From assembly GCA_009695045.1 (NCBI GenBank), contig SIBS01000001.1, positions 1-42,941 on the forward strand: a stretch of 42,941 bases of DNA, in the 5' to 3' direction. Numbering within the stretch: position 1 is the stretch's first letter; each line of letters opens with the position of its first letter. Of this stretch, positions 7,850 to 17,031 are shown piece by piece. A program made the position numbers and the translations under genes. The DNA is from Candidatus Levyibacteriota bacterium. Its GTDB lineage: Bacteria > Patescibacteriota > Microgenomatia > Levybacterales > UBA12049. Under the pieces are notes generated by a model, which was not told the origin of the DNA, did no database searches, and saw only the letters and a program-made list of their open reading frames with translations.

Positions 7850-7879
7850 TTGACAAGAATAATAAAATAATTATATTAT
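7850..7879 (+). promoter_or_regulatory. Sigma70-like promoter for the SAM riboswitch transcript
   Basis: Consensus TTGACA (7850-7855) with TATATT (16-nt spacer) or TATTAT (18-nt spacer), immediately upstream of the aptamer. Confidence 0.65.
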
Positions 7880-7885
7880 TATAAA

Positions 7886-7985
7886 AATCAAGAGTGATGG
7901 AAAGGGGACTGGCCCGATTATCCATCCAGCAACCGAGCCATTAAAAATGACTGCGGTGCTAATTCCAGCCCATAAGGGAATGATT
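7886..7985 (+). ncRNA. SAM riboswitch aptamer (S-box, SAM-I type)
   Basis: AAGAGTGATGGAAAGGGGACTGGCCCGATTATCCATCCAGCAACCGAGCCATT...GCGGTGCTAATTCCAGCCCATAAGGGAATGATTAG matches the S-box core (GGGACTGGCCC, CAGCAACC, GGTGCTAAnTCC). Confidence 0.93.
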
Positions 7986-8008
7986 AGGTCTAATTGACAA
8001 AAATTTTA

Positions 8009-8031
8009 CCTCTCTTATGAGAGGTTTTTTT
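8009..8031 (+). terminator. SAM riboswitch expression-platform terminator, CCTCTC-TTAT-GAGAGG-T7
   Basis: 6-bp GC-containing stem plus 7 T. Alternative pairing AGGT(7986-7989)/ACCT(8008-8011) and AATT(7992-7995)/AATT(8002-8005) could act as antiterminator. Confidence 0.8.
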
Positions 8032-9639
8032 ATGATTAAAACAGAACGGATCCTAGATAATACCAAAAGAACGCCTCCACGATTTGCAGCAGAATCTACT
8101 ACTAAATTTCAAGACTCACTTGATGATAAAAATAAAGGCATTTACAGTGAAACAGCTACGTATTGGAGAAATGGATTTCCGTCATTAGCATCTGCAGAAA
8201 GACATATTGGGGAACTAATAGGAGCACCAAAAGAGCATATTTTTCTTACAAATTCAGGTATGTCTGCGCTAGCAACAGCTGTTGAAGCAACTGCTCCAAC
8301 TCATGGAGATATAGTTATTTATGGAAATCAAGGCTATCGCAATTCATTACTTTTTTTTCAAAATATACTAGGTGGTCGCGGAGTGATACCGATACCAATA
8401 AATCCTGGTTCAATTTTAGATATTGAACAAGTACTGCAAAAAATAGAATCATCAAAAAAAATAGTAAAAGTATTAGCATTTGAACCTTTTGCAAATGATA
8501 AAAAAATGCCAGTTGTTGATGTGAAAAAACTTTTAGAACTTCCGGTTTTGCAAAGAATTAATCCTATTATAATTCTTGATAATACTCTTGCAACAGATTC
8601 CATTTTGCCCTTAGCATCCATCTTAAAAAAATACCCAAATCTACAGACTATAGTAGTTGAAAGTATTACAAAATCTTATTTATCAAATGAAGATAATGGT
8701 GGAGTTATTTTCACTTCAAATGATGAATTAGCTAAATTAATACAAATATATAGGAAGGTATATGGATCTACCCCTGGTCCATCCTTGATTCAAACAGCAG
8801 AAAAATTCATTCCTCCAACCAAGGATCAATTTGATAAAGAAAATAGAAAAATTGCACAAAATACACTTATAATTGCGAGAGCATGCGAAGATGCAAAGGG
8901 ATCAGGTGAATTATTTGAAGTTATTCATCCCGGACTCGTGTCTCATCCAAATTATGAAATCAATAATAAAATTTCTATAGATAATGCAACCGTTCCATTA
9001 TTTTATATAAATCCAATTATTGAAGGATTAACTTCTAAAGAAATTGTTCGAGTTATTGAAAGAAATAATGGGCTTAGAGATTGTTTTATAACTGAAAGCT
9101 TTGGTTTTCCACAAACTTCAATATTATGGGAACCAAATTCAAATTATGTAAGAATTGCTGGCGGACTTGAGGAAAATGAAAAAACTATCAGTATTGCAAA
9201 TAGGTTTAAAGATGCTCTTTCTCAGATAATAAGCATTCCAACTGGCGAAGTATTTCCATTTAATAATTATAAAATAGAAATAAGAAAACAACTTTTAGAA
9301 AATTGCGGACAAACTTGCCTAGAAATGATTGGAAGAGAAGTTCCAGTTGAATTATTAAATGAAGGCGAAGTTTCACCGCTAGACTTACTAGGATATATTT
9401 ATGATGCGAAGATACATAATTTCGAAATTGACGAATTTTCCGAAAATAATATCGCGATGGTTTTAGGAAATAAAAAAAATACAGGAAGATATCATTGGTA
9501 TTTAAGAATAGGGAATAATATTATTGATCCAGAACAAGGAATAGTAGAGCTAGCAAAGGAATATGAACAAAGAGAAATAAATGAAATAATTACATCGATA
9601 TTAATCCCAACTAAAGTAGCTCTTCCAAAAGAGGAGTAA
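8032..9639 (+). CDS. Cys/Met-metabolism PLP-dependent enzyme (cystathionine gamma-synthase/lyase family) with C-terminal papain/C39-like domain
   Basis: IIILDNTLATDSILPLA and VVESITKSYLSNEDNGGVIF (PLP-binding Asp and Lys contexts). C-terminal extension contains NCGQTCLEMIG and YHWYLRIGNNIIDPE. Start moved from 8017, which lies in the terminator loop. Confidence 0.82.
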   Translation: MIKTERILDNTKRTPPRFAAESTTKFQDSLDDKNKGIYSETATYWRNGFPSLASAERHIGELIGAPKEHIFLTNSGMSALATAVEATAPTHGDIVIYGNQGYRNSLLFFQNILGGRGVIPIPINPGSILDIEQVLQKIESSKKIVKVLAFEPFANDKKMPVVDVKKLLELPVLQRINPIIILDNTLATDSILPLASILKKYPNLQTIVVESITKSYLSNEDNGGVIFTSNDELAKLIQIYRKVYGSTPGPSLIQTAEKFIPPTKDQFDKENRKIAQNTLIIARACEDAKGSGELFEVIHPGLVSHPNYEINNKISIDNATVPLFYINPIIEGLTSKEIVRVIERNNGLRDCFITESFGFPQTSILWEPNSNYVRIAGGLEENEKTISIANRFKDALSQIISIPTGEVFPFNNYKIEIRKQLLENCGQTCLEMIGREVPVELLNEGEVSPLDLLGYIYDAKIHNFEIDEFSENNIAMVLGNKKNTGRYHWYLRIGNNIIDPEQGIVELAKEYEQREINEIITSILIPTKVALPKEE

Positions 9640-10501
9640 TATCACGATTACCAAATGATTGCTTCACGAGAGGCATACTCGAAATTTGTGGCGTACCATC
9701 TTCCCATGTAGGTCTTTCTTCTTTGTAAAGTATTCCTGTTGCAATTTTTTCTTTTTCCCCATCCATAAGTGCCCTCTTTAATGGCCATTCCTCTGCTATA
9801 AGATAGGCTTGTGCCTTATCACTAGTATCATGTCCATTATCTTCTACCTTATATACGCGTTCATAAAACCATGAAAATGTATTTTTATGGTTAAATGTTA
9901 CGCATGGCTGCATTGTATCAATGATAGAAAACCCTTTATGCTTGATCCCTTCCATCACGAGCTGGGTCTCTTGCTTATTATCTCCAGCAAATCCTCTGGC
10001 AACAAACGTTGCGCCCGCAGCGAGAGAATAAGACATGGGATTAACTGGCGCCTCAACTGTTGGAACTGGTGTTGCTTTATTTTTTTCACCAATGTCTGTT
10101 GTTGGGGAAAATTGACCAGTAGTTAATCCATAAATCTGATTATTATGAACTATTAAAGTAAGATTTATATTTCTTCTTGCAGCATGAAGTAAGTGATTCG
10201 CGCCTTCCCCATATTGATCACCATCTCCACCAATCACAATTACCGTAAGCCCACTGTTGGCTAACCTAATACCTTCTGCTATCGGCATTGGCCTACCGTG
10301 TAATCCGTTAAATCCGTATGTCTTTACCCAGTAAGGAAGCTTACTCGAGCATCCAATTCCTGAAACAAGAACAACTTCCCACGGATTAAGCTGCAGGGAC
10401 ACAATAGCATTTTTTAAAGATACCCAGACTCCAAAGTCCCCACACCCAGGACACCAATTTGGCTTATCATATGTAATCTCTAAATCTTTTAATTCTGTCA
10501 T
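9611..10501 (-). CDS. korB: 2-oxoacid:ferredoxin oxidoreductase subunit beta
   Basis: NWCPGCGDFGVW, SGIGCSSKLPYW, VIGGDGDQYGEGANHLLHAARRN (TPP binding), NNQIYGLTTGQFSPTT. Confidence 0.92.
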   Translation of the reverse strand: MTELKDLEITYDKPNWCPGCGDFGVWVSLKNAIVSLQLNPWEVVLVSGIGCSSKLPYWVKTYGFNGLHGRPMPIAEGIRLANSGLTVIVIGGDGDQYGEGANHLLHAARRNINLTLIVHNNQIYGLTTGQFSPTTDIGEKNKATPVPTVEAPVNPMSYSLAAGATFVARGFAGDNKQETQLVMEGIKHKGFSIIDTMQPCVTFNHKNTFSWFYERVYKVEDNGHDTSDKAQAYLIAEEWPLKRALMDGEKEKIATGILYKEERPTWEDGTPQISSMPLVKQSFGNRDITPLLEELL

Positions 10502-12246
10502 AATACCTCTTTTATTCTCGCTATAATCTCTTCAGGATAAAATGGTCTACCGTCATACTTTCTAAAATTATGGCTCATAGTTAATCCTGTATACTCTCTT
10601 ATTAATCCCTCTAGTTGTCCAGTCTTATTTCCCTCAATAATAAGTGTTTTCCCACTTTTACCAATAGCGGATATAACGGCATCAACCGGAAATGGTGCCA
10701 GGCAATTAATTTTTAAAAAGTTTACTGAAATATTTTCTTTTGCCAACCAATTCATTGCTTCAAGCGTAGGCATTTTAGTTGAACCAAAACCAACAATTGT
10801 TAAAGATGCATCCGCTAAGCCATAACTATCTACTGGGGAAAAACCTAACTCCAAAGACTCTAATTTCTTGAATCGCTTATTCATCATTTTTATTCGAACT
10901 TCCGCCTCTTCATTATAAAGCCCGCGTTCATCATGTTCATCGGATCCAGATAATGCGATTCCACCTTTTTGGCCAGGAATAGATCGAGGAGAGATACCAT
11001 CATCTACCAAGGAATATCTCTTGTAATCTGTAGACAAAGCCACATCTTCATCACTAATAATTTTTCCTCTCTTTATAACAAAGTTCTTTGCTAAAGATGA
11101 TATTTTATCAAATGGAACAGTTGCATGCCCCTCCATTAAATACTTATCAACTACCAAAATAACTGGAAGCTGACATATATCTGCAATATTAAATGCATTC
11201 ATGCTCATATTAAAAGCCTCTAACATATCTCCTGGAGCTATAACAACTCTAGGAAAATCATCTTGACCTGCATGTAGAACAAATCTTAAGTCTCCTTGAC
11301 CTGTCCATGTTGGCATACCTGTCGCTGGACCAGGTCGCATTCCTTCTACGATTACTAGTGGCGTTTCTGTTTGAGCTGCTAAACCAACTGATTCTACCAT
11401 TAAGGAAAATCCACCACCGCTCGTTGCAACCATACTCCTAGCACCTGCAAATGAAGCGCCAATTGCCATATTAATACCAGCAATTTCATCTTCCGGCTCC
11501 TTTGCTACAATACCATACTTAAGCGACTGAGCAATCAATGTCATCATCACTCCATTAACTGGTGTCATTGGATAAATTGCAGAAAAATTTACACCAGATT
11601 GTATTGCACCAAGAGCAACAGATTCTCCTCCACCTATAAGTATATTTTTTTGAGTTTGTAAAATATTTTTTTCAATAATTCGCTTAAATTTACCAAAGCT
11701 ATTTTTTTGCACGTATTCAAATCCTGACTTTGCAGCATTAATATTTTCTATTACGACTTCTTCTCCTTTTTTAGAAAAAACGTCTTGCATTATTTTTTCA
11801 AGCACATTAAAGTCATCATGTATTAAGCCTAATGATGCTCCTACGGCAACTGTATTTATCATTAATCGATCTACATTGATTTGCTTGATTATTCCTGCAA
11901 ATGGTACAGGTATTAAAACCGTGCCTAATGCAAATTCTGCAGGATCAACCTTAATTAATTGATCATCGTAAATAATAGCTGCTCCATCAGATAATTCTTG
12001 CTTATGTTTATCTATTGTCTCCCTATTCAAAGCAACAAGAATATCTACTGATTTCTTTTGGGAAAAAATCTGCTCACTTGCGCCACGAACATAATATGCA
12101 TTATGACCACCACGGATAAGTGATGGGTATTCTACATAATCAAAAACGGAGAGACCAAGGCGAGTAAAAATTTTTGACATCATTACGCCAATCGTCATGA
12201 TGCCATAACCAGCTTCTCCGCCAATAAGCCATTGAATATCAGTCAT
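10498..12246 (-). CDS. korA: 2-oxoacid:ferredoxin oxidoreductase subunit alpha (gamma-alpha fusion)
   Basis: MTDIQWLIGGEAGYGIMTIG (gamma domain), AIYPMTPVNGVM, EDEIAGINMAIGASFAGARSMVATSGGGFSLMVE. Start at 12246 preferred over 12267. Confidence 0.92.
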   Translation of the reverse strand: MTDIQWLIGGEAGYGIMTIGVMMSKIFTRLGLSVFDYVEYPSLIRGGHNAYYVRGASEQIFSQKKSVDILVALNRETIDKHKQELSDGAAIIYDDQLIKVDPAEFALGTVLIPVPFAGIIKQINVDRLMINTVAVGASLGLIHDDFNVLEKIMQDVFSKKGEEVVIENINAAKSGFEYVQKNSFGKFKRIIEKNILQTQKNILIGGGESVALGAIQSGVNFSAIYPMTPVNGVMMTLIAQSLKYGIVAKEPEDEIAGINMAIGASFAGARSMVATSGGGFSLMVESVGLAAQTETPLVIVEGMRPGPATGMPTWTGQGDLRFVLHAGQDDFPRVVIAPGDMLEAFNMSMNAFNIADICQLPVILVVDKYLMEGHATVPFDKISSLAKNFVIKRGKIISDEDVALSTDYKRYSLVDDGISPRSIPGQKGGIALSGSDEHDERGLYNEEAEVRIKMMNKRFKKLESLELGFSPVDSYGLADASLTIVGFGSTKMPTLEAMNWLAKENISVNFLKINCLAPFPVDAVISAIGKSGKTLIIEGNKTGQLEGLIREYTGLTMSHNFRKYDGRPFYPEEIIARIKEVL

Positions 12247-12338
12247 TATATTTTGTAATAATATCAATTATATAATATATTAACAAGAAAAAATATCAAT
12301 CTTCGCAATAAGTATATTTAAAGCTATAAAAAATATAG

Positions 12339-12449: not shown

Positions 12450-12722
12450 TTATGCTGGCCAAACTTGACGAATCTCATTTCCATTATCATCAACCTCAAC
12501 GATTACAATAGCATTAACTGGACATGATTTTGCAGCGTGCTCAATATTGACCTCTGTATCATTTATATCCAGATATGATACTAAGTCTGAAGTCGTTGAA
12601 CCATCTTTTTTCTTTATTACTGCTTTACCTTCTCCATCTAATTCAAAAGTGCCCGGAGCAACAGCAACGCAACTCGCTGCTCCTATACATGAATTCCTAT
12701 CTACTCTTACTTTAAGTGGCAT
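12450..12722 (-). CDS. Ferredoxin, single cluster, three-Cys (3Fe-4S-type) motif
   Basis: MPLKVRVDRNSCIGAASCVAVAPGTFELD...HAAKSCPVNAI: C-x2-A-x2-C ... C-P. Confidence 0.85.
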   Translation of the reverse strand: MPLKVRVDRNSCIGAASCVAVAPGTFELDGEGKAVIKKKDGSTTSDLVSYLDINDTEVNIEHAAKSCPVNAIVIVEVDDNGNEIRQVWPA

Positions 12723-13101
12723 AAAGACAATCTCTTAGTACTCCTAAAGCAAGAAGTGCGCATTTTTTTCTCGCTTCTGATACTTCAACTCCCAATAATC
12801 TTAGCATATCTTTTTGAGAAAATTTTGTCAACTCATTTATTGCTTTTCCCTTGCTATATTCTGTAAGGATTGATGCACTCGCAATGCTGATGGCGCATCC
12901 ATAACCATTGAAAGATATTTCCCCAACGCTAATTTGTTTTTTTTTATACTTATTTGTACTTTTCCAATTGATAAATATTTCTATCTCATCTCCACAAAAA
13001 GGATTAGTCTGCTTTGACTTAATAGAAAAATTTTCAATAAATCCAAAATTTTGTGGACTCCTATAATGTTCTAATATTTCTTCTCTATATAAATTATTCA
13101 T
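12712..13101 (-). CDS. sufU: SufU/NifU-like iron-sulfur scaffold protein
   Basis: YREEILEHYRSPQNFGFIE, NPFCGDEIEIFI, FNGYGCAISIASASILTEYSKGK, ARKKCALLALGVLRDCL. Confidence 0.88.
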   Translation of the reverse strand: MNNLYREEILEHYRSPQNFGFIENFSIKSKQTNPFCGDEIEIFINWKSTNKYKKKQISVGEISFNGYGCAISIASASILTEYSKGKAINELTKFSQKDMLRLLGVEVSEARKKCALLALGVLRDCLYAT

Positions 13102-13104
13102 ATA

Positions 13105-14352
13105 TTATTTCTTGAAAATTGATTTAACTTTTTTTATTCCACTAATAAATAAATCCACATCATCTCTATCATTATAAATATAAAAACTAACACGAGCACT
13201 CGCTTGTATTCCGAGCACGGAATGGAGTATCTGAGCACAATGATGACCAGCTCTTATACAAATATTCATATCACCCAATATTTGCGCAATATCATGTGGA
13301 TGAATATTCTCTAAGGAAAAAGATATTGCACCTGATCTATCGTTTGACTTTAATGGTCCATATATTGTTAAACCTTCTATTTTATTCATCTTAATCATTG
13401 CATATTCAGTCAATTCTATTTCATGCATTCTGACATTTTTTATTCCAATTCTGTTTAGATAATCTATCGCAGAACTAAGTCCAATAATTGCTTCTATTGG
13501 CAACGTTCCTGATTCGAATTTTTGAGGAGACTCTGTAAATGTTGTTAAATTTTTTGAAACCTCTCGTATCATTTGACTACCATAAATCAATGGATCAATT
13601 TCTTTTAATATTTTTTTCTTCCCAAATAAGATACCTATTCCTGTTGGAGACATCATTTTATGTCCTGAAAAAACAAGAAAATCACATCCCATATCTTGAA
13701 CATTTATAGAAAAATGAGGCGCAGATTGAGCAGCATCAACAATAATAAATGGTTTATTTTTATCGCCATATTTCTCGGTTAATAATGAAGCAATTTTTTT
13801 AATATCAACTATAGTTCCCAATACATTTGAAACATGACATAATGCTACAATTGACAGTAAGGGAATATCTAATAAAGATGTAAAAACAATATTATTATAT
13901 TCATCTTTAATCTCATCGCATAATTGACCATTTTTATCAATTGCCCAATAATATAATTTTGCTTTTTTTTCTTTAGCAATTTTTTGCCATGGAACAAGAT
14001 TGGAATTATGTTCCATTTCAGTCAACAAAATCGCACTTCCCTCTGAAATAAATTTTTTTAATCCATTCATTATTATGTTTATTCCCTCAGTAGTACCATG
14101 AGTAAATATAATTTCATCAGGAGATGAGGCATTAATAAAGGTTGATATCTTAATTCTTGCTTTTTCTACTTCTAAAGTTGCCATTTCTGCAATTTTATAT
14201 AAGCCACGATGTATATTGGAATTATATGTTGTATAAAAATTACTTACTGAATCTATAACGCATTGTGGTTTTTGCGAAGTTGAAGCAGAATCTAAATATA
14301 TAAGTGAGGAGATTTTTGAAAAAATAGGGAAATCATCTCTATATTTTTTCAT
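13105..14352 (-). CDS. sufS: Cysteine desulfurase SufS
   Basis: YLDSASTSQKPQCVID, FTHGTTEGIN, DAAQSAPHF, FLVFSGHKMMSPTGIGILFGKK, RAGHHCAQ. Confidence 0.93.
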   Translation of the reverse strand: MKKYRDDFPIFSKISSLIYLDSASTSQKPQCVIDSVSNFYTTYNSNIHRGLYKIAEMATLEVEKARIKISTFINASSPDEIIFTHGTTEGINIIMNGLKKFISEGSAILLTEMEHNSNLVPWQKIAKEKKAKLYYWAIDKNGQLCDEIKDEYNNIVFTSLLDIPLLSIVALCHVSNVLGTIVDIKKIASLLTEKYGDKNKPFIIVDAAQSAPHFSINVQDMGCDFLVFSGHKMMSPTGIGILFGKKKILKEIDPLIYGSQMIREVSKNLTTFTESPQKFESGTLPIEAIIGLSSAIDYLNRIGIKNVRMHEIELTEYAMIKMNKIEGLTIYGPLKSNDRSGAISFSLENIHPHDIAQILGDMNICIRAGHHCAQILHSVLGIQASARVSFYIYNDRDDVDLFISGIKKVKSIFKK

Positions 14353-14918
14353 AAATTTTTTCTTATTTTTTTTTGTAAAATATTTTGCTCACTTTTTGGA
14401 AAATATGAAATAAAAGGCATAAAAAAACCAGAAATGATAAGTTCTTCTGCTTGTTTTTCAGTAAGACCCCTACTACGCATGTAAAATATTTGATCTTCAT
14501 TCGGTCTACCGATCGTAGAAGCATGTCCTGCCTTTAAATCATTTTCATCTATTTCTAGCGATGGCACACTTCTTCCTTTTGCATCATCAAATAGGATTAT
14601 TTTCGAGGAGAAAAATCCATCTGATCCTCTTGCACCATTCTGAATTCGGACCATTCCATCATTATCAATTGACGAATTATTCTTAAATACTCCCCTTATG
14701 GTTGTCATACTTTTTGTATTCTCACCTTCGTGAGTAACATCGGTATTGAAAACAATTTTAGATGAACCAGTACCAAGAAAAAGTCCTACCATATGAAAAC
14801 TTGCGCCTTTTCCAACAAGACGAATTTTCACATTTACTTCTTTTTCTTCTCCATTTATCCATATAAATGGAAGTGTACATTTTTGATTATCTTTAATAAT
14901 ACGCTCTATTATTTTCAT
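14349..14918 (-). CDS. sufD: Short SufD-like Fe-S assembly protein (189 aa)
   Basis: LEIDENDLKAGHASTIGRPNEDQIFYMRSRGLTEKQAEELIISGF matches the SufB/D C-terminal core; located between sufB and sufS. TGA stop overlaps sufS ATG (ATGA). Confidence 0.85.
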   Translation of the reverse strand: MKIIERIIKDNQKCTLPFIWINGEEKEVNVKIRLVGKGASFHMVGLFLGTGSSKIVFNTDVTHEGENTKSMTTIRGVFKNNSSIDNDGMVRIQNGARGSDGFFSSKIILFDDAKGRSVPSLEIDENDLKAGHASTIGRPNEDQIFYMRSRGLTEKQAEELIISGFFMPFISYFPKSEQNILQKKIRKNL

Positions 14919-14924
14919 TTCTTC

Positions 14925-16322
14925 TTACCCTACGGAGCCAGTCATCTCTAATTGAAGAAGACGATTTAGCTCTATTGCGTATTCCATTGGTAATTCGCGC
15001 ACTATCGGCTCGACAAATCCATTTACAATCATTACCTCCGCTTGTGCTTGAGATATTCCTCTACTTTGAAAATAAAATAACTGATCTTCGCCAATTTTTG
15101 AAACAGATGCTTCATGACCAATGGAAACACGCTCTTCATCAATACTCATGGTAGGATATGTATCGGATCTACTAATAGAGTCTAATATGAGTGCATCACA
15201 ACGAACGGTAGACTTACTGTTCTCTGCACTTTTAATTACTTTTAAAAGTCCCCTATACGATGCTCTCCCGCCATCCTTGCATACAGATTTTGAAGAAATT
15301 ACAGAGCTTGTTTCGGGAGCCAAGTGTACAGCTTTTCCTCCAGCATCCTGATGCTGACCTTTTCCAGCAAATGCCAAAGATAAAATTTCACCACGAGCCT
15401 TCCTTCCCTTCAAGTAAATAGATGGGTATTTCATCGTAACCTTACTTCCCAAATTACCATCTATCCACTCACCAAATCCTTCTTCTTCTACAAACATTCT
15501 TTTTGTTACCAAATTATAGACATTTTTACTCCAGTTTTGAATTGTAGTATATCTTACGCGTGCTCCTTTTTTTACTATTATTTCAACGACTGCAGAGTGT
15601 AATGAATCAGTAGTAAAAATTGGCGCAGTACAGCCTTCTACGTAGTGAAGATAACTTCCCTCATCAGCAATAATAATTGTTCGTTCAAATTGTCCTAAAT
15701 TTTTTGCATTAATTCTGAAATAAGCTTGCAAAGGCAAATCAATATGAACCCCTTTTGGTACATAGATAAAAGATCCCCCAGACCATGCAGCAGTATTTAA
15801 GGCTGCAAATTTATTATCACCTGGAGGAACTATTTTAGTAAAATATTCTTTAACAAGATCTGGATATTTTTGAACTGCAGTATCAGTATCAACAAAAATA
15901 ACACCTTTATCAGATAACATTTTAGAAATACTATGGTATACGACTTCAGAATCATACTGTGCGCCAACACCTGCTAAAAATTTTCTCTCTGCTTCAGGAA
16001 TGCCAATTTTTTCAAACGTATTTTTTATTTCTTCTGGAACCTCATCCCATGTTCTTCCTTGTTTTTCTGAAGGCTTTACATAATAATAAATATTATCAAA
16101 ATCAATCTTAGATAAATCTGCACCCCATGAAGGCATTTGCTTTGTATAAAAAAGCGCTAATGCTTTTAGCCTAATTTCCCTCATCCATTCTGGTTCTTTT
16201 TTCATCCAAGATATTTCGTTAATAATTTTCTCCGAAATTCCCTTAGGCGAAGAGTAGAATGGCTTTGCTGGATCATGAAAGCCAAATTGATAATTCGATA
16301 AATCAAATTTTTGCATATCCAT
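14925..16322 (-). CDS. sufB: Fe-S cluster assembly protein SufB
   Basis: [77 protein letters not shown]. Confidence 0.95.
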
Positions 16323-17031
16323 CCTTTTCTATTTTTTTTACCAATGAGATTGTACCAGTACTTTTAATTTGACCATCAATCAAAACATGTACCTTATCTG
16401 GCTTTAGATAATGTAGTATTCTTTGATAATGAGTTATTATGAGAATTCCTACTTTTTGTTGTTTTACTACTTCGATTACTGCTTCAGCTACTATCTTAAG
16501 ACTATCTATGTCTAGCCCTGAATCTATTTCGTCAAGAATTGCAAACTTTGGCTGCAGAATAATTAACTGAACTATCTCTGCTCGTTTTTTTTCTCCACCA
16601 GAAAATCCTTCATTAATCGATCTTTGCATAAAATTCTCGTCAAGATGAACTACTTTCAAGGCATTTATTACACTTTGCTTAAATTGAGATAATGGTATTT
16701 TAATATCTGGATAAAGTGCCTTATGTGCTGTTCTAAGAAACGATAAAAATGAAACGCCACTTATTTCAATTGGCTGCTGAAAAGAAACAAATAAGCCAAT
16801 TCTTGCTCTCTCTTCTGGTAATAATGAGATAATATCTTTATTATTAATAGATATTTCTCCATCAATCTTCTTATAACCTGGATGCCCCATAAGACTCATT
16901 GCTAATGTTGTTTTCCCTGCACCATTTGGTCCCATTACAGCATGAATCTCTCCCGAATTTATAGAAATATTTATCCCATTTAAGATTTTTTTATTACCTA
17001 TTTGTACGTGTAAATTTATTATTTTTAACAT
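16303..17031 (-). CDS. sufC: Fe-S cluster assembly ATPase SufC
   Basis: [20 protein letters not shown] (Walker A), [29 protein letters not shown]. Confidence 0.95.

Follow-up and report, generated by a model that had tools for sequence, protein, structure and literature searches.

In the window analysed here (the whole 42,941-nt stretch of DNA), a SAM-I riboswitch aptamer heads an intact ORF that joins a divergent Cys/Met PLP enzyme to a C-terminal extension of probable C39-like type (Table 1). We read this arrangement, with a probability of roughly 45 %, as a gene that SAM represses and that encodes a sulfur-amino-acid enzyme of two domains.

Table 1. Features of the riboswitch-led gene (window coordinates)
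Feature	Position	Strand	Details	Basis
Sigma-70-like promoter	7850–7877	+	TTGACA-16-TATATT, 11/12, directly 5′ of the aptamer	Consensus match only; such sites occur in the region about as often as expected by chance
SAM-I (S-box) riboswitch aptamer	7882–7986	+	P1 looks short (AAUC/GAUU)	RF00162, sub-gathering
Candidate ON-state pairing	7986–8011	+	AGGU (7986–7989) with ACCU (8008–8011); would free the ribosome site	Constrained folding of the window leader
OFF-state hairpin, terminator-like	8008–8031	+	ACCUCUC-UUAU-GAGAGGU + U7; 3′ arm GAGAGG (8019–8024) is the likely Shine-Dalgarno	
ORF, divergent Cys/Met PLP enzyme + C39-like domain	8032–9639	+	535 aa	Homologous fusion in G105
PLP domain	8032–9237	+	Residues 1–402; Schiff-base Lys K214 (8671–8673)	PF01053, alignment
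C-terminal extension, C39-like	9238–9636	+	Residues 403–535; Q420 (9289–9291), C425 (9304–9306), H488 (9493–9495), D499 (9526–9528)	

An earlier note on this DNA had placed a SAM-I riboswitch upstream of the gene, and the covariance model bears this out: RF00162 matches over model positions 1–108 (38.5 bits, E value 1.8e-7 in a 301-nt search), though the score lies below the Rfam gathering score of 44.4 and a default Rfam scan therefore lists no SAM-I at this site. A search of the whole genome with the same model returned the same element (E value 9.5e-8), which is the sole SAM-I element in the host genome, and the core motifs CAAGAG, GCAACC and GGUGCUAAUUCC can be read directly in the window. 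Further sub-threshold Rfam matches (leader peptides and sRNAs) were rejected as no better than chance, most of them resembling the A+T-rich terminator of the preceding gene. The aptamer stands 5′ of a methionine/SAM-related gene, and folding predicts that the platform between them is switchable.

This platform is compact, likely using the 3′ arm of a hairpin (GAGAGG) as the ribosome site and a U6–7 run as the spacer before the AUG. The same arrangement is shared by the units of all seven members of the PLP subfamily described below, and most SAM-I leaders, including those ahead of other genes in the relatives, end in CCUCUC-loop-GAGAGG-U7-AUG. The exact string was found at 15 places in 14 of 382 genomes of the class, 11 of the 15 places lying behind a SAM-I aptamer (one of the 11, in G020, being partial), while a reversed control pattern had 0 occurrences in the same 382 genomes; for the window, 0.05 occurrences of the hairpin-U7-ATG string are expected at ≤2 mismatches, which speaks against a chance origin. 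Two aptamers that lack the exact string keep the hairpin through paired changes, namely ACCUCCC/GGGAGGU in G021 and ACCUCUUG/CAAGAGGU in G005.

With the ribosome-site arm forced open in folding, the partner of the 5′ arm in G304, G310, G018 and G017 is GGGA(A)GG, from the 3′ strand of P4/P1; in the window leader it is AGGU together with the GAG in the kink-turn, a weaker pairing than in the relatives. From this folding and complementarity we infer an OFF switch, in which bound SAM would hold P4/P1 together and release the 5′ arm to close on GAGAGG. When SAM is scarce, the aptamer would be loose, upstream sequence would hold the 5′ arm ACCUCUC and the free GAGAGG would allow the protein to be made; when SAM is bound, the hairpin would mask the ribosome site and may also end transcription within the U7 stretch that immediately precedes the AUG. 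Hairpins that act as both terminator and sequestor are known from other riboswitches, and the present platform is therefore a variant. A CCTCTC/GAGAGG-T7 string also follows what appears by eye to be a cobalamin-type leader (L140, G152:C66), so the platform may serve other riboswitch classes too.

The ORF runs for 535 codons without a stop. Translation probably begins at ATG 8032, since the mechanical ORF start (ATG 8017) sits in the loop/3′ arm of the leader hairpin. The gene had been proposed to encode a Cys_Met_Meta_PP enzyme, in agreement with a PF01053 match over residues 21–327 (62.2 bits; family cut-off 27). The Schiff-base lysine and the cofactor contacts are present (Y44, R46, Y102, N155, D183, S211/T213/K214 and R374), and Y44, R46, Y102, N155, D183, R374 and the lysine are invariant in all seven subfamily members. 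The best score against the NCBIfam equivalogs, which include cystathionine gamma-synthase, was 46 bits against a cut-off of 477.

The subfamily comprises seven members found in Microgenomates genomes: the window protein, its relatives in G020 (37 % identity) and G026 (36 %), and those in G105, G304, G290 and G310 (30–32 %). In the PLP tree, the window protein groups with G020 and G026 (93/91), and G105 with G304, G290 and G310 (95/95). A glutamate precedes the conserved serine in the clade of the window protein (ITESFGF) and a glutamine in the other clade; this position presumably separates cystathionine gamma-synthase/lyase from methionine gamma-lyase, and we treat it as a lead only.

SAM-I leads all seven units that contain the subfamily gene. 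The aptamers of the window, G026, G105, G304 and G310 were called by covariance model, and those of G290 and G020 were read by eye on account of large inserts (G290) and a contig end (G020). The gene order in G020 is MetF-MetE-MetE′-PLP-canonical cystathionine-type enzyme, and in G026 aspartokinase, homoserine dehydrogenase, Asd, homoserine-kinase-like, SAM-I, PLP, canonical enzyme; in both, the PLP gene overlaps the canonical one. SAM-I in G310 precedes a 137-aa gene within the unit of the PLP gene. Other SAM-I targets in the relatives are metK, metE-like and metA genes and several genes of no known function.

Some of these last encode small proteins. The 137-aa product (L051 4913–5326, G310) and a 151-aa product (L144 1048–1503, G358) are uncharacterized and alike by eye, and their genes lie directly behind SAM-I leaders, upstream of the PLP gene or of a MetE-like gene. 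A second look-alike pair, of 130 aa (L146 1526–1918, G327) and 138 aa (L143 1064–1480, G250), stands behind the same SAM-I/hairpin leader. Two larger uncharacterized genes behind SAM-I leaders encode 263 aa (G018:C34 3123–3914, L069) and 444 aa (G018:C2 31398–32732, L067); the L069 switch shares its gene neighbourhood with the switch of the window but drives a different gene.

The pathway that explains the relatives of the PLP gene is absent from the host. Its 677-kb genome (96 % complete) encodes one PF01053 protein in total, with no second, canonical partner enzyme found, and neither MetE nor homoserine dehydrogenase was found in it. The metK gene is a truncated remnant with stops (RPIYLSTASYGHFGR; G000:C5 about 52460–52890; L096 2957–3390, minus strand). 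The host thus seems to have lost the bacterial SAM synthetase yet kept the SAM-I switch, and with the partners missing as well, the gene looks like a methionine-regulon orphan. Next to it, on the opposite strand of the window, ORF reading indicates subunits of a 2-oxoacid:ferredoxin oxidoreductase and a Suf iron-sulfur operon (9611–12267 and 12450–17031).

The metK remnant and the missing MetE, homoserine dehydrogenase and second PF01053 enzyme are what would be expected if switch and gene were decaying leftovers of methionine synthesis that persist and do little. We consider this very unlikely, as the 535 codons are free of stops and the active-site residues, riboswitch core and platform are intact. 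Moreover, G105 keeps a homologous fusion with its switch and likewise returned no match for bacterial MetK, MetE or homoserine dehydrogenase, and G304 none for bacterial MetK (the genomes are not fully complete). Under the preferred reading, the PLP half would be a functional enzyme of the gamma family (cystathionine type), from a divergent Microgenomates subfamily that serves methionine synthesis in some relatives; given that the methionine partners were not found in the host, it would likely use imported substrates there.

The extra C-terminal residues described in the earlier note are present and amount to about 133 aa, with the motifs ENCGQTCLEMIG...HWYLRIG...IIDPEQG. Pfam and NCBIfam searches of this extension returned no match (for Peptidase C39, PF03412, none at E 10), and PHROGs and PDB sequence searches gave no usable match; PDB matches to solute-binding proteins (E value 0.2) were rejected as they lack the Cys/His motifs. 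By tblastn, the best plasmid match was the S. epidermidis peptidase of a C39 exporter (E value 0.05, 83 % of the query). The C39 HMM scored 12.0 bits on the window tail; 3000 shuffles reached at most 8.5 and the other window ORFs at most 3.1. An hhalign comparison of the three-sequence extension family with C39 gave 88.6 % (P 2.6e-6) across almost the whole domain, aligning Gln, Cys, His and Asp with Q420, C425, H488 and D499 in order; 200 column shuffles gave ≤1.3 %. Since the S. epidermidis sequence (L130) had been picked for its tblastn match, a control comparison omitted it; the value then fell to 62 %, covering only the His/Asp part. Smaller sets, without L130 and others, gave 10–30 %, and 171 pieces of other window ORFs ≤3.7 %. 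C39_2 (PF13529) was rejected as parent family because only its Cys motif aligns (22 %).

These profile comparisons make a C39-like papain fold probable, and the papain/C39 reading of the earlier note is partly supported; structure modelling did not add to it, with an AlphaFold pLDDT of 45 for the tail alone and 50.7 for the full protein (45–51 overall) and a meaningless best Foldseek match (E value 1.0). The missing Pfam match, the poor models and a profile support due in part to one selected sequence would also suit an extension that is not papain-like, a fast-evolving lineage-specific domain whose NCG...H...DP order resembles that type by coincidence. We find this explanation unlikely, as far lower scores are obtained with shuffles and with other ORFs of the window, and the alignment keeps the catalytic residues in order and is almost full-length.

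The extension occurs in two of the seven subfamily members, the window protein and that of G105 (33 % identity; extension E value 2.9e-7), and was seen on none of the canonical PLP enzymes, so that it is not a common feature of the PLP family, as the earlier note had required of its proposal. The homologous fusion in G105 argues that the architecture is not due to chance. No further clear case emerged from a profile search of 382 genomes of the phylum or among 45 genomes of the family of G105, viral contigs contained no relative, and the PLP + C39-like architecture is absent from every curated family searched. A single shared origin, with both fusions as one PLP clade, was rejected (p-AU 0.0006), which leaves either two separate fusion events or an ancestral fusion with several losses. 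G020 encodes a free-standing 195-aa homologue (L028/L052) on a contig other than that of its PLP gene, which shares the KIPT and NCGQT...HW motifs with the extension but differs in having no PLP domain, no visible SAM-I leader and Cys in place of Asp, so that catalysis may not be universal.

It is on these grounds that a non-catalytic or regulatory tail has to be weighed, one that binds a ligand or peptide or controls oligomerization, as in some exporters, leaving only the PLP half enzymatic. Most subfamily members do without the extension, the G020 homologue lacks the Asp, and C39-like domains without peptidase activity exist; both fusions nevertheless retain Gln, Cys, His and Asp, and we place this possibility on the unlikely side. 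In the two-domain enzyme that we prefer, the C39-like half would most likely cleave or transfer a small peptide or thiol-peptide and so yield a sulfur amino acid for the PLP site, although this coupling of the two domains is a guess. A survey of papain-like enzymes in JBC (PMC10318531) sets C39 near C70, BtrH_N acyltransferases and phytochelatin synthase, and hydrolase, transferase and thiol-peptide chemistry are therefore all possible for the extension. A narrower proposal, which we regard as rather doubtful, is a bifunctional sulfur scavenger, turned on at SAM shortage in a host unable to make SAM: its C39-like cysteine hydrolase would cut a thiol-peptide to free a sulfur amino acid, which would then move on to the PLP site within one and the same chain.

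A literature search of limited breadth found no paper joining SAM riboswitches and the Candidate Phyla Radiation; one review (PMC11665869) mentions both riboswitches and Patescibacteria, as tools. New here are the presence of SAM-I in all seven units, the shared platform, the recurrence of the extension, its C39-like profile support and the apparent orphan status of the gene in its host. The system makes metabolite-sensing regulation accessible to testing in the mostly uncultured Patescibacteria and defines a divergent PLP subfamily with SAM-I ahead of each sampled member. A switch without a recognizable bacterial-type MetK, in the host and in G105, raises the question of whether imported SAM is sensed, and a SAM-I regulon with a compact, lineage-wide platform could serve as a ligand-controlled expression tool.

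Relative to the cystathionine gamma-synthase/lyase family (PF01053), the PLP domain scores above the family cut-off and keeps the Schiff-base Lys and the Asp, Tyr and Arg contacts, but the subfamily has lost the YSRxGNPT and HPASMTH motifs (the latter with a deletion of ~17 residues), falls far below every NCBIfam equivalog cut-off and forms its own clade. The tail resembles the peptidase domain of bacteriocin exporters such as PCAT1 and ComA (PF03412) in its similar length and in the aligned order Q-x4-CG...L-x-M, H-aromatic, D-P; it differs in scoring below Pfam level and in being C-terminal on a PLP enzyme within a single ORF, with no ABC exporter attached. Finally, the riboswitch shares with typical SAM-I (S-box) elements of RF00162 a full-length match, a kink-turn, the GCAACC + GGUGC core and a place at the head of methionine-regulon genes, and departs from them in the sub-gathering score and short P1 of the window element and in the merged hairpin/ribosome-site/U-run/AUG platform that is common to Microgenomates.
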